Below are positions 7,227 through 11,801 of a stretch of 64,000 nucleotides of DNA, piece after piece (position 1 is the stretch's first letter; every line of letters starts with the position of its first letter). Source of the DNA: Leadbettera azotonutricia ZAS-9 (GTDB lineage: Bacteria > Spirochaetota > Spirochaetia > Treponematales > Breznakiellaceae); contig NC_015577.1 in assembly GCF_000214355.1 (NCBI RefSeq), positions 806,001-870,000 of the forward strand, read 5' to 3'. The position numbers were made by a program, and so were the translations under genes. The notes under the pieces are model-generated. The model was given only the letters and a program-made list of their open reading frames with translations, had not been told where the DNA came from and ran no database searches.

Positions 7227-8564
7227 ATGGACGAAATAATAGAAATCATTAATGGAACCCCAATTGACATAAAGAGGCTTCATGCTATTTTTGCGGGGAT
7301 GAATCCTGTGGATATAGCCGGGTTGTTCGAAGATATGGATAAGGACAGCATTGGACAGGTGTTTCGGGTGCTGCCCAAGGCCATTGCGGCTGAGGTTTTT
7401 GCGTATATAGAGCCTGACGAGCAGCAGCTGATTGTCGAGAACCTTACGGATAAGGAAATCAGTGAAATCATCAATAAGCTGTTCATGGACGATACGGTGG
7501 ACTTTATCGAGGAGATGCCTGCCAATGTGGTGAAACGGGTATTGCAGAATGTAGGGGTGGAAAAAAGGAAGCTCATCAATCAAATATTGAGGTATCCTGA
7601 GGATTCTGCCGGCAGTGTCATGACCACTGAGTACATCAACCTCGGGGAAGACATGACGGTTGCCGAGGCCTTTGATTTTATACGAAAAACTGGCGTTAAC
7701 AAGGAAACCATATATACCAGCTATGTCATCACTCCGGACAGGAAGCTCATAGGCAGCCTGTCTGCCAAGACCCTCATGCTTGCGCAGCCGGGGGAAAGGG
7801 TGAGCGATATAATGGAGAAGAATGTTATTCATACCCATACTACAGACGATCAGGAAATGGTGGCTGGGCTGTTTAAAAAGTATGACCTCCTTTCCATGCC
7901 CGTTGTTGATAATGACGACAGGCTTGTGGGTATTGTTACGGTTGATGATGTGCTCGAGATCATAGAAGAGGAGAGCACCGAAGATATCGAAATAATGGGC
8001 GCCTTGCAGCCGTCTGAAGAGCCTTATATGAAAACAGGGATTATTCAGCTTGCAAAAAACCGTATGCTTTGGCTTCTGGTGCTGATGCTTTCTGCAACTG
8101 TCACCGGCGCTGTGCTGTCGGGTTTTGAAGACGCTCTTGCGGTTCTGCCTATACTGGTTATTTTTATCCCAATGCTGATGGACACGGGAGGTAACGCAGG
8201 TTCTCAAAGTTCTACACTGATTATTCGCGGTATGGCCCTTGGGGAAATCGAAAGCAAGAATCTTTTGGAAGTTTTATGGAAAGAGGTGCGTATAGGTTTT
8301 CTCTGTGGTATTGTTCTTGGATTTATCAATTTTATCCGCGTTTATTTAATGAACGGCAGGAATGCGGTTCTTGCCTTTGCTGTAACGATGAGTTTGTTTT
8401 GTACAATCATAATTGCAAAAATGGTCGGCTGTATGCTTCCCATTGTTGCCAAGAAAATAAAAGTTGATCCGGCCATAATGGCAGCGCCTCTTATAACTAC
8501 TATCGTTGATGCCGCCTCGCTGCTTATTTATTTTTCCATTGCCAAATTGATTTTTAAAATATAG
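7227..8564 (+). CDS. mgtE: Magnesium transporter MgtE
   Basis: MgtE is an inner-membrane Mg2+ channel gated by cytoplasmic magnesium. Domains in order: a helical MgtE N domain (about residues 1-130), a CBS pair (about 135-255, ending VGIVTVDDVLEIIEEE), a connecting helix and five membrane helices with the ion-path motif PMLMDTGGNAGSQSS. Length of 445 residues is normal. A TTG three bases upstream is in frame, but GGAGAGG at 7214-7220 is best spaced for ATG 7227. It converges on the EndoQ-helicase gene with nine bases between the stops, with no obvious terminator between them. Confidence 0.93.
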   Translation: MDEIIEIINGTPIDIKRLHAIFAGMNPVDIAGLFEDMDKDSIGQVFRVLPKAIAAEVFAYIEPDEQQLIVENLTDKEISEIINKLFMDDTVDFIEEMPANVVKRVLQNVGVEKRKLINQILRYPEDSAGSVMTTEYINLGEDMTVAEAFDFIRKTGVNKETIYTSYVITPDRKLIGSLSAKTLMLAQPGERVSDIMEKNVIHTHTTDDQEMVAGLFKKYDLLSMPVVDNDDRLVGIVTVDDVLEIIEEESTEDIEIMGALQPSEEPYMKTGIIQLAKNRMLWLLVLMLSATVTGAVLSGFEDALAVLPILVIFIPMLMDTGGNAGSQSSTLIIRGMALGEIESKNLLEVLWKEVRIGFLCGIVLGFINFIRVYLMNGRNAVLAFAVTMSLFCTIIIAKMVGCMLPIVAKKIKVDPAIMAAPLITTIVDAASLLIYFSIAKLIFKI

Positions 8565-8573
8565 GGTTTTGAA

Positions 8574-11500
8574 TTAAAACAGCCTTAGTTGTGAATCCCT
8601 TTTCAGTATTTTTTGTTCCTGTGCGAGGGGGATTATTTTTTCAAGCTCTGAAAGAAAACGGCTTGGCCCGCCGGAAAGTGTTCTGCCCTGGAAAATCCTT
8701 GATTTTGCCCAAGAAAGCCAAAGACCTTGTTTGGCCCTGGTCATGGCAACGTAGAGTATGCGGCGTTCTTCTTCAATATCTTCATCTTTGTCATAGAGGG
8801 TGAAGGGAAGTATGCCTTCCTCAAGGGATGGCAGAAACACTTGATTGAATTCCAAACCTTTGGACGCATGTATGGTCATAATCCGCACACCTTCACGCTT
8901 GACACCGGGCATGCCTTCGGCTTCTATTGATGAAAGGCTGTCAAGGAGAGAGGGAATATCGCCAAATAAATTAGCAAGTTGTATGAGTTCTTTTAAATCC
9001 GGATGATTTTTATCCGATATGGTTTTGCAGGCTTTTTCTATTTCTTCTGATGGGGCTGAATTAAGGGAAGATCTATTTTCACGAAGGATATCCAACACTG
9101 TTTTAACAGGCTCTTCTTCCCACCAAGGCGTTTCGGCCTCATAAATATAGGGAAGCCCATGATCCGCTAAAGCCTTTATGATAGGTTCTGCCAATGCAGA
9201 AGCACGGATAAGGACAGCGCAATCGCTCAGACTTATATTGAAGCCTTCGCCGTTGACCGCATTGGCATTGCCTGCTGCATTGCTATCCATGGCGAAGAAG
9301 CTTGCTCCGCCCAAAAACCCGGCAATGGTTCTGGCTATACCTTCGGCCTCGGATGCAGCGCTGGGATATTCCGCGCGGAAAAGATTCACCCCTTGGCCGT
9401 CAACAGGAACACCGCGAAGATTTGCCCCTGCAAGCCGGGAAGCAGCTTTAATAATAGGTTCAGAACATCGGAAACTGCGAATAAGACTGAAGCTGTGGGC
9501 TTTGGGATAATCATCCATAAAGCGATCGATAAAATGTTTGTCCGACCCCCTAAAGCCATAAATAGCTTGATTGGGATCGCCTATAACCCAGAGAGGAGGG
9601 GAATTTTCGTCCTCTGCGGGGGCCAGTAATTTTACGAGCATATATTGGGCAAAATTTATATCTTGGTATTCATCAACAAAAATATGCTGAAATTTTTTGC
9701 GGTAATGATTAACAATTTTTTCTTTGAGCATTAAAAGGCGGACAGTGCCGGAAACAAGATCGTCAAAATCTATTCCCTTTTTTTCTCTAAGTTTATCCCT
9801 GTAAATGCTATAGAGCCGTTCCAATTCAGAAATTGGCTCAGGATATTGGGCTTCAATGTTTTTAAATGAGGTTTCATCGGGAAGGAGGAGGTATCGTTTT
9901 CTTTCTTCGATATATGTTCCCAGGCGGCGGGGCTGTACCTTTTTTCCTATGGCAGAGCTGCATATCTCTTTGAGCAGGATACTGCGTTCATTGTCACCGA
10001 GAATCGAAAAATCTTCAGAAAGGCCTGCTGCGATGTTTTGTTCCCTTAATATGGATCTGCAGAGGGAATGGAATGTTGAGATCGTGGGAGTGGCGGTTGT
10101 GTCTGTATTATCAATTTTAATCCCCGAAAGCGAGAGCGCCCGTTCCTTAAGCTCTGCTGCTGCCTTTACCGTAAAGCTTAGTGCGAGGATAGAAGGGGGA
10201 TTAATTCCATCTCGGATAAGGCGTGCTATCCGGGCTGCAAGGAGCATTGTTTTCCCTGTTCCTGGTCCTGCAATGATGACGGCATATTTGCCGGAGTATG
10301 AAATAATTTCATCCTGAACCGCATCCGGGGTAAATAACTGCTTTACTGCTGTCTTTTGTTTTGCCTTAGAAGTATCAGTATTATTTTTTTTGGGCGATTC
10401 GCGTGCCTTTGGCTTTTCTTTCATCAGGGGCATTTTTTCTGCTGGCAGCATTTCTTCAAAAAGCCCGCCCCCGCTTTCCCTTGATTTCCCTTCAAGGACC
10501 TTGATGACGCCATATTCGCCGTCATAGCCGGGGCTCATCGAAACTTTCCCTGAACGCATATGCCTTATGGCAATAGAAAGCAATTCGCCTGAAATGCCTG
10601 GGGCAGAAAGCTTTTCAATATCCTTTAAGCTCATGTCCATGAGGATGGCGAATTCATTCCCCCCATTTTGAATAAGCCTTGTATATGCGGCGTCAACTTT
10701 TTTTGAAGCCGAACCGGTTCCCAGAATTTCTGCGCATATCTCTTTTAACGGGATAAGGGAATAATAGGGCCGTTTATTGGTGCTTTCTGCATTATCGGGG
10801 CATGGCTGCTTTTCATCTACCGGCCAATCTGCAAGTTCAAGCACCCTGCCCATGACTCCTCGGGTAAGCGGTTTGCCGCATACAGGGCAGATGCCCGACG
10901 AGTTCACGGCTTCATCAGGGCTGAGGTATATATTGCATTTCCTGTGTCCATCGTAATGGTACTTGCCTTCCTGGGGGAAAAACTCGATAGTGCCACGTAT
11001 GCGTTCGTTTCTGCTGCCGGGTGCGAGGGCATGGACAAATGAAGAATATGAAAGATCCATTTCCAATAAAGTAGCTTCCCTGCCAAGTTTGTCCGGGGAA
11101 TGGGCATCGGAATTGGAGATGATGGAATATTTGTCCAGGCTTTTTAGCGCCCAGTTCATGGGAGGGTTGGACGAAAGGCCCGTTTCTATCGCAGGTATAT
11201 GCACACTCAGCTTGCCATAACATTCTTCGATGGAATCAAAACCCGATTTTGCGCCAAGGGCCGAAAACCATGGTGTCCAGATATGGGCTGGTATAAGCAG
11301 GGAACGGCTGTCGGTTTCGACGAGCATATCGAGGAGGTCTGCAGAATCGATACCGAGAATAGGCCTGCCATCAGAATTGATGTTTCCGATCTTTTCGAGT
11401 TTCGCATTAAATGAAGCCGCAGCTTTGAAATCGGGCAATATGATAAGGTGGTGTATTTTACGGGTTCTACCATCTTTATTATAAATAGTGCTGATTTCCC

Positions 11501-11801
11501 CGGTAAGCACAAAGCGGGGTTCATCAAAAGTGCCAAAGGGCTGGGGCAGCCCTTCTTCGAGAGCGGGGCCTGTGTCAAAAATGGCTCTCGCTTTTTTCTT
11601 CAAACTATAGAAGCCCTCTTCTGCATCATTAAAAGATTCACGCAATTCAGCCAGCCAGCGGGGGTGGGTACAGTCGCCGGTTCCCAAAAGGTTTATCCCC
11701 TTGATCCTGGCCCAGCGTTCAAGGGAAGCCGGGGTAAGCCTCGGACTGGTTGCCCGGGAATAGCGGGAATGGATATGGAGGTCGGCTGTAATTTTCATCA
11801 T
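8574..11801 (-). CDS. Endonuclease Q fused to a UvrD/PcrA-type helicase
   Basis: This 1075-residue protein joins two repair enzymes. Residues 1-290 are a PHP-type metal phosphoesterase (starts ADLHIHSRYS; later SNSDAHSPDKLG), followed by GTIEFFPQEGKYHYDGHRKC, a zinc-ribbon-like CPVCGKPLTRGV near residue 320, and PGYDGEYGVIKVLE near 430. That order is characteristic of endonuclease Q (TIGR00375), which nicks DNA 5' of deaminated bases such as uracil and hypoxanthine. From about 490 to the end is a full superfamily 1A helicase: GPGTGKT, VDEYQDIN, GDPNQAIYGFRGSD, TIHASKGLEF and VAMTRAKQG. Both enzymatic halves look intact. Fusion would couple lesion nicking to strand unwinding. Two starts are possible, ATG 11801 or ATG 11798; both follow a TATACT box directly. 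Confidence 0.9.
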   Translation of the reverse strand: MMKITADLHIHSRYSRATSPRLTPASLERWARIKGINLLGTGDCTHPRWLAELRESFNDAEEGFYSLKKKARAIFDTGPALEEGLPQPFGTFDEPRFVLTGEISTIYNKDGRTRKIHHLIILPDFKAAASFNAKLEKIGNINSDGRPILGIDSADLLDMLVETDSRSLLIPAHIWTPWFSALGAKSGFDSIEECYGKLSVHIPAIETGLSSNPPMNWALKSLDKYSIISNSDAHSPDKLGREATLLEMDLSYSSFVHALAPGSRNERIRGTIEFFPQEGKYHYDGHRKCNIYLSPDEAVNSSGICPVCGKPLTRGVMGRVLELADWPVDEKQPCPDNAESTNKRPYYSLIPLKEICAEILGTGSASKKVDAAYTRLIQNGGNEFAILMDMSLKDIEKLSAPGISGELLSIAIRHMRSGKVSMSPGYDGEYGVIKVLEGKSRESGGGLFEEMLPAEKMPLMKEKPKARESPKKNNTDTSKAKQKTAVKQLFTPDAVQDEIISYSGKYAVIIAGPGTGKTMLLAARIARLIRDGINPPSILALSFTVKAAAELKERALSLSGIKIDNTDTTATPTISTFHSLCRSILREQNIAAGLSEDFSILGDNERSILLKEICSSAIGKKVQPRRLGTYIEERKRYLLLPDETSFKNIEAQYPEPISELERLYSIYRDKLREKKGIDFDDLVSGTVRLLMLKEKIVNHYRKKFQHIFVDEYQDINFAQYMLVKLLAPAEDENSPPLWVIGDPNQAIYGFRGSDKHFIDRFMDDYPKAHSFSLIRSFRCSEPIIKAASRLAGANLRGVPVDGQGVNLFRAEYPSAASEAEGIARTIAGFLGGASFFAMDSNAAGNANAVNGEGFNISLSDCAVLIRASALAEPIIKALADHGLPYIYEAETPWWEEEPVKTVLDILRENRSSLNSAPSEEIEKACKTISDKNHPDLKELIQLANLFGDIPSLLDSLSSIEAEGMPGVKREGVRIMTIHASKGLEFNQVFLPSLEEGILPFTLYDKDEDIEEERRILYVAMTRAKQGLWLSWAKSRIFQGRTLSGGPSRFLSELEKIIPLAQEQKILKRDSQLRLF

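Follow-up and report, generated by a model that had tools for sequence, protein, structure and literature searches.

The window, the whole stretch of 64,000 nucleotides that was analysed, carries on its minus strand a gene in which an endonuclease Q (EndoQ)-type nuclease is joined to a UvrD-like helicase. We consider it rather likely that the encoded protein acts in the repair of deaminated bases as a nuclease-helicase tethered to the sliding clamp, which would first nick the strand and then displace it while the gap is filled in.

Architecture of the fusion gene

The fusion gene (8574..11801, minus strand, read from 11801 to 8574) is a single open frame of 1075 amino acids plus stop, recognized from the frame itself and from Pfam, NCBIfam and PDB searches, in a source genome that consists of a single closed contig of 3,855,671 bases. 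A preliminary description of this DNA had reported EndoQ and a UvrD-type helicase in one frame of 1075 residues, which is confirmed here together with the strand that it had left unstated; the KYHYDGHRKC and PGYDGEYGVIK segments and all SF1A motifs are present as it quoted them. The second ATG (11798) is closer to the family consensus start than the first. Residues 1-437 (10491..11801, minus strand) form the EndoQ-type half, assigned by alignment with PfuEndoQ (E 4.6e-53), by the columns of 55 aligned fusions and by comparison of the structural model with 5zb8. Residues 495-1075 (8577..10319, minus strand) form the SF1A UvrD-like helicase half, assigned by domain searches for UvrD/PcrA/Rep (PF00580, 4.7e-64; PF13361, 1.1e-31), by motif columns and by comparison of the model with 2is1. 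The two are connected by a disordered linker (residues 440-487; 10341..10484, minus strand) with pLDDT below 50.

The AlphaFold model of the fusion (pLDDT 87.3, pTM 0.86) is disordered in this linker and in the tail (1067-1075). Structure prediction of both halves had been proposed as a check, and the predicted folds match PfuEndoQ and DNA-bound UvrD. The EndoQ half superimposes on PfuEndoQ (5zb8) with a Z of 45.9 and an rmsd of 2.1 over 381 residues (TM 0.89 of target), and on PfuEndoQ with a dU duplex (7k30) with a Z of 44.6; the helicase half matches UvrD-DNA (2is1) with a Z of 36.3 over 540 residues.

The gene neighbours of the fusion in the window are mgtE and yhhN, the surrounding genes are housekeeping genes, and the 64-kb window holds no repair-related operon partner. 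About 10 bases (window 8564-8574) separate the end of the fusion gene from that of mgtE, which is convergent with it.

Distribution and evolution

A genome scan with the EndoQ half yielded at least 80 relatives, and the figures given here are those among the matches listed. Single-frame fusions account for 65 of these 80, six are split pairs (neighbouring separate EndoQ and UvrD-like helicase genes), five are EndoQ alone and four lie at loci running off the contig. This homologue survey, also suggested in the preliminary description, shows that the fusion is not confined to one organism. Because the same two-part frame recurs at 65 independent loci, a chance, frameshift or assembly artefact is excluded as its origin. 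The 65 fusions and six adjacent split pairs among the 80 loci also argue that the nuclease and helicase are functionally linked, their activities working together.

The relatives listed span at least 12 phyla, including Spirochaetota, Calditrichota, Elusimicrobiota, Bacteroidota, Cloacimonadota, Planctomycetota, Thermodesulfobacteriota, Myxococcota, Chloroflexota and KSB1, although many come from metagenome bins, so that single placements may be wrong. Within Spirochaetota, 44 of 247 genomes contain a TIGR00375-type match, and 30 of these 44 matches lie in open frames of at least 980 aa, as judged by frame length only. In the tree, the bacterial fusion-containing clade (84 rows) is set apart from an EndoQ-only group of other Spirochaetota with support of 100/100, although long branches meet at the join of the two groups and the bootstrap is not fully settled. 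Since fusions, split pairs and EndoQ-only forms are intermixed within this one well-separated clade, and the fusion label changes about 14 times on the tree, both fusion and fission events have probably occurred in the history of the family. A second, distant EndoQ-only type (L097, L098, L099, L100 and L101), from other Spirochaetota families, is about 30-33% identical to the window protein; most of its members stop at the GYDGEYG element and lack a clamp motif.

The EndoQ-type half

EndoQ nicks DNA 5' of uracil, hypoxanthine, xanthine and abasic sites. The PHP metal motifs reported earlier are present in the fusion, and every catalytic and lesion-pocket residue tested is kept; the EndoQ metal residues, whose loss on alignment the preliminary description had named as decisive against its reading, are all retained. 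The PHP nuclease residues are H9, H11, D43, E102, H117, H173, D232 and H234. By alignment, H9, H11 and D232 are identical to H8, H10 and D193 of PfuEndoQ, and E102, H117, H173, G208 and S210 are identical to its E76, H84, H139, G169 and S171, which are essential or lesion-sorting residues (PMC8307549). The lesion pocket of the fusion is formed by H173, G208 and S210, and the equivalent PfuEndoQ residues (H139, G169 and S171) exclude T and A sterically (PMC8307549). In 55 aligned fusions, the columns of H9, H11, E102, H117, H173, G208 and S210 are invariant, and D232 is kept in 54, with N in the remaining one. The zinc knuckle ligands H286, C289, C305 and C308 are invariant throughout the same alignment; the first of them is a His in the fusion, whereas PfuEndoQ has a Cys at this position and four Cys in all.

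Identity of the EndoQ half to PfuEndoQ is about 31-35%. Its score against TIGR00375 is 167.5 bits, below the equivalog cut-off of 326.6 bits, which is reached in none of the 247 Spirochaetota genomes. As the cut-off is missed both here and in all 247 genomes, the half is named an EndoQ-type domain and not a TIGR00375 equivalog, and its membership in EndoQ, judged from alignment and model, extends no further than fold and active site.

The helicase half

The SF1A motifs are intact, comprising I (GPGTGKT, 512-518), II (DEYQD, 710-714), III (742-752), V (978-985) and VI (1011-1022), and the columns tested for these five motifs are invariant in the 55 fusions except for one E984G. Scores for PF00580 (217.1 bits) and UvrD_C (111 bits) are above the curated cut-offs, but the NCBIfam equivalog cut-offs are missed for pcrA (307 vs 911 bits), uvrD (260 vs 1144) and rep (271 vs 951). 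Three other UvrD-family proteins are encoded in the genome besides the fusion.

The preliminary description had spoken of a full UvrD-type helicase. This holds for the core, where all SF1A motifs are found, but not for the 2B-like region (residues 884-972; 8886..9152, minus strand), which occupies 89 alignment columns and is modelled as helices without a full 2B domain. At 88-89 aa, it has about half the length seen in the longest fusions (169-175 aa), and the family range is 17-175 aa. Given these lengths, the 2B domain, which is regulatory in UvrD, is reduced in the window protein, and some relatives can do without it; repeated loss or truncation seems to have taken place within the fusion family. 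The nuclease and linker may have taken over part of its control. The length of 2B is highly variable among fusions that are otherwise well conserved.

The C-terminal clamp motif

The window protein ends in KRDSQLRLF, a feature that the preliminary description had missed. The last five residues (QLRLF, 1071-1075; 8577..8591, minus strand) lie in the low-pLDDT tail and agree with the QLxLF consensus for beta-clamp binding, a motif that is commonly C-terminal (PMC4549789). The second L of the motif is present in all 55 aligned fusions, the Q in 54 and the F in 51. A strict Q[LM]x[LM]F stands at the protein end in 39 of 56 fusions vs none of 555 background frames (other frames of at least 200 aa at the same loci), and a relaxed QxxLF in 49 of 56 vs two of 555. 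Five of the six split pairs (L043, L056, L066, L072 and L073) have a QLxLF-type or relaxed clamp motif at the end of both the EndoQ and the helicase. Many fusions contain a second QxxLF in the linker, where a stand-alone EndoQ would end; the linker of the window protein has only a degenerate GGGLF at this site.

Archaeal EndoQ carries a C-terminal PIP box that binds PCNA, and PCNA stimulates EndoQ (Shiraishi et al., PMC4858679). That bacterial EndoQ homologues end in a beta-clamp consensus has already been pointed out (PMC4858679); the present analysis adds the fusion itself, the position of the motif behind the helicase and the finding that both proteins of split pairs carry it. Judging from its sequence, QLRLF probably docks the fusion on the DnaN beta clamp. 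Since archaeal EndoQ has its PIP box at the same place as the conserved QLxLF, we infer clamp-tethered incision repair and not the self-contained machine of the preliminary description, a term that is not supported: the conserved motif points to a sliding clamp and polymerase as partners, and a flap nuclease and ligase would still be needed.

Proposed mechanism and alternatives

To our knowledge, the events that follow the EndoQ nick have been an open question since the discovery of EndoQ in 2015. Strand displacement or removal by a helicase after the nick was already proposed in the discovery paper, without a helicase being named (PMC4357722). In the mechanism proposed here, QLRLF would dock the fusion on the DnaN clamp, and the EndoQ half, as its conserved residues and fold suggest, would flip out a uracil, hypoxanthine or abasic site. 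From EndoQ biochemistry, a nick would be expected at the phosphate 5' of the lesion, so that one side ends in a 3'-OH and the lesion stays on the 5' end of the other. The UvrD-like half, presumably a 3'-to-5' motor like other SF1A members, would load onto the undamaged strand at the nick, and its translocation there would peel the lesion-bearing 5' end away as a flap. A clamp-bound polymerase would meanwhile extend from the 3'-OH, and cutting of the flap and sealing are assumed to be left to a 5' nuclease and a ligase. Points that weigh against this reading are the score below the TIGR00375 cut-off, the His in place of one zinc Cys, the uracil-DNA glycosylase that most fusion carriers keep, and mgtE and yhhN as neighbours.

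The order of the two activities could be reversed: travelling along single-stranded or freshly opened DNA, for instance on the clamp in the wake of the fork, the helicase would present bases to the EndoQ pocket, so that unwinding precedes nicking. Uracil and hypoxanthine in single-stranded DNA are cut by EndoQ (PMC11354406; PMC6202378), and the clamp motif would place the fusion at replication sites, yet a nicked duplex is both the direct product of EndoQ and a classic entry point of UvrD. The sequence itself fits either order, and we regard the reversed one as unlikely. Lower still is the probability we assign to a changed substrate, in which the EndoQ domain would serve another excision pathway and cut a different base lesion, a structured intermediate or an RNA-DNA junction. 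A change of this kind would fit the sub-cut-off TIGR00375 score, the low identity to PfuEndoQ and the substituted zinc ligand; however, the equivalents of the T- and A-excluding residues H139, G169 and S171 are all kept and invariant, and Bacillus EndoQ has ordinary activity (PMC6202378).

A role in defence, with the fusion attacking foreign DNA that contains uracil or hypoxanthine as a Gabija-like anti-phage or anti-plasmid nuclease-helicase, appears highly improbable. GajB profiles are numerous among the matches of the helicase half (best 8.3e-80), and a review mentions that Bacillus EndoQ might act against viruses (PMC8307549). However, general UvrD homology accounts for the GajB matches, PcrA matching better at 2.1e-91, and the EndoQ half matches no PADLOC family among the 25 listed. 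The locus lacks the arrangement of GajB adjacent to GajA, its neighbours being mgtE and yhhN among housekeeping genes, and the deep inheritance of the fusion within clades is unlike that of a mobile defence gene. The EndoQ half has no match in the phage and plasmid collections, and an origin as phage or plasmid cargo is rejected.

Relation to known systems

The fusion shares with EndoQ (PfuEndoQ, TkoEndoQ and Bacillus EndoQ) the fold, the PHP metal ligands, the lesion-sorting pocket, the zinc-binding domain and a clamp-binding motif at the C-terminus, which is a PIP box in archaea and the beta-clamp consensus in bacterial homologues (PMC4858679). However, known EndoQ is a nuclease alone, of about 400-425 aa, whereas the fusion adds a UvrD helicase with the clamp motif at the helicase end, replaces one zinc Cys by His and scores below the TIGR00375 cut-off. 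With the SF1A helicases UvrD, PcrA and Rep, the fusion has every core motif and the overall fold (Z 36.3 against UvrD-DNA) in common, but it falls under the equivalog cut-offs, has a short and length-variable 2B and carries its helicase behind a nuclease. AddA/RecB and AdnAB also combine an SF1A helicase and a nuclease on one chain, but their nuclease is C-terminal, of RecB type and directed at double-strand ends, whereas that of the fusion is an N-terminal lesion-specific PHP enzyme. The glycosylase-free nick 5' of the lesion predicted for the fusion is shared with Mth212/ExoIII-type dU endonucleases (nucleotide incision repair) and with UVDE, which have unrelated folds and no attached helicase.

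Any domain search must reveal the fusion. No published description of an EndoQ-helicase fusion was found in the open-licence papers searched, and within these papers the earlier label of a poorly described system is apt. The fusion, together with the clamp motif on both split partners, offers a concrete answer to the post-nick question in the form of clamp-coupled strand displacement, and it would make EndoQ, until now largely a curiosity of archaea, a repair enzyme of bacteria at large.

Uracil glycosylases in fusion-bearing genomes

A match to the uracil-DNA glycosylase (UDG) superfamily is found in 240 of 247 Spirochaetota genomes, and UDG is present in 13 of the 15 fusion-bearing genomes checked. 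As nearly all Spirochaetota, fusion carriers included, have UDG, the fusion is rejected as a general UDG replacement, and since most carriers keep UDG, replacement is not its usual role. The earlier suggestion that the fusion would bypass glycosylases thus fails as a general rule, yet it is plausible for the source genome, where UDG is degenerate and endonuclease V is absent.

The only UDG-superfamily match in the source genome is weak (E 2.8e-10) and belongs to a family-4 relative of 187 aa that scores 70.6 bits vs a cut-off of 125.3. This UDG remnant (G000:C1:1732297-1732659; L086 1444..2007; minus strand) was assigned by profile match and family alignment and compared with intact genes from three genomes of the same family. 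Through in-frame gaps it has lost its iron-sulphur cysteines, namely those of the N-terminal CxxC and of KCRPP, together with most of motif A (GEGPGxDED..GRPFVG), whereas another genome of the family (L090) keeps an intact copy. The closest relatives of the window protein come from L002 and L008, and neither UDG nor endonuclease V is found in these two genomes, although the assemblies may be incomplete.

Since the sole UDG gene is degenerate, the fusion is probably the main uracil route in the source genome, which represents a natural case of apparent loss of the ordinary uracil glycosylase. More tentatively, the fusion may belong to a glycosylase-independent, clamp-coupled incision pathway of many phyla, in which one polypeptide both nicks and displaces and which in this lineage would have replaced a decayed UDG. 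The source genome also encodes three HhH-GPD proteins.
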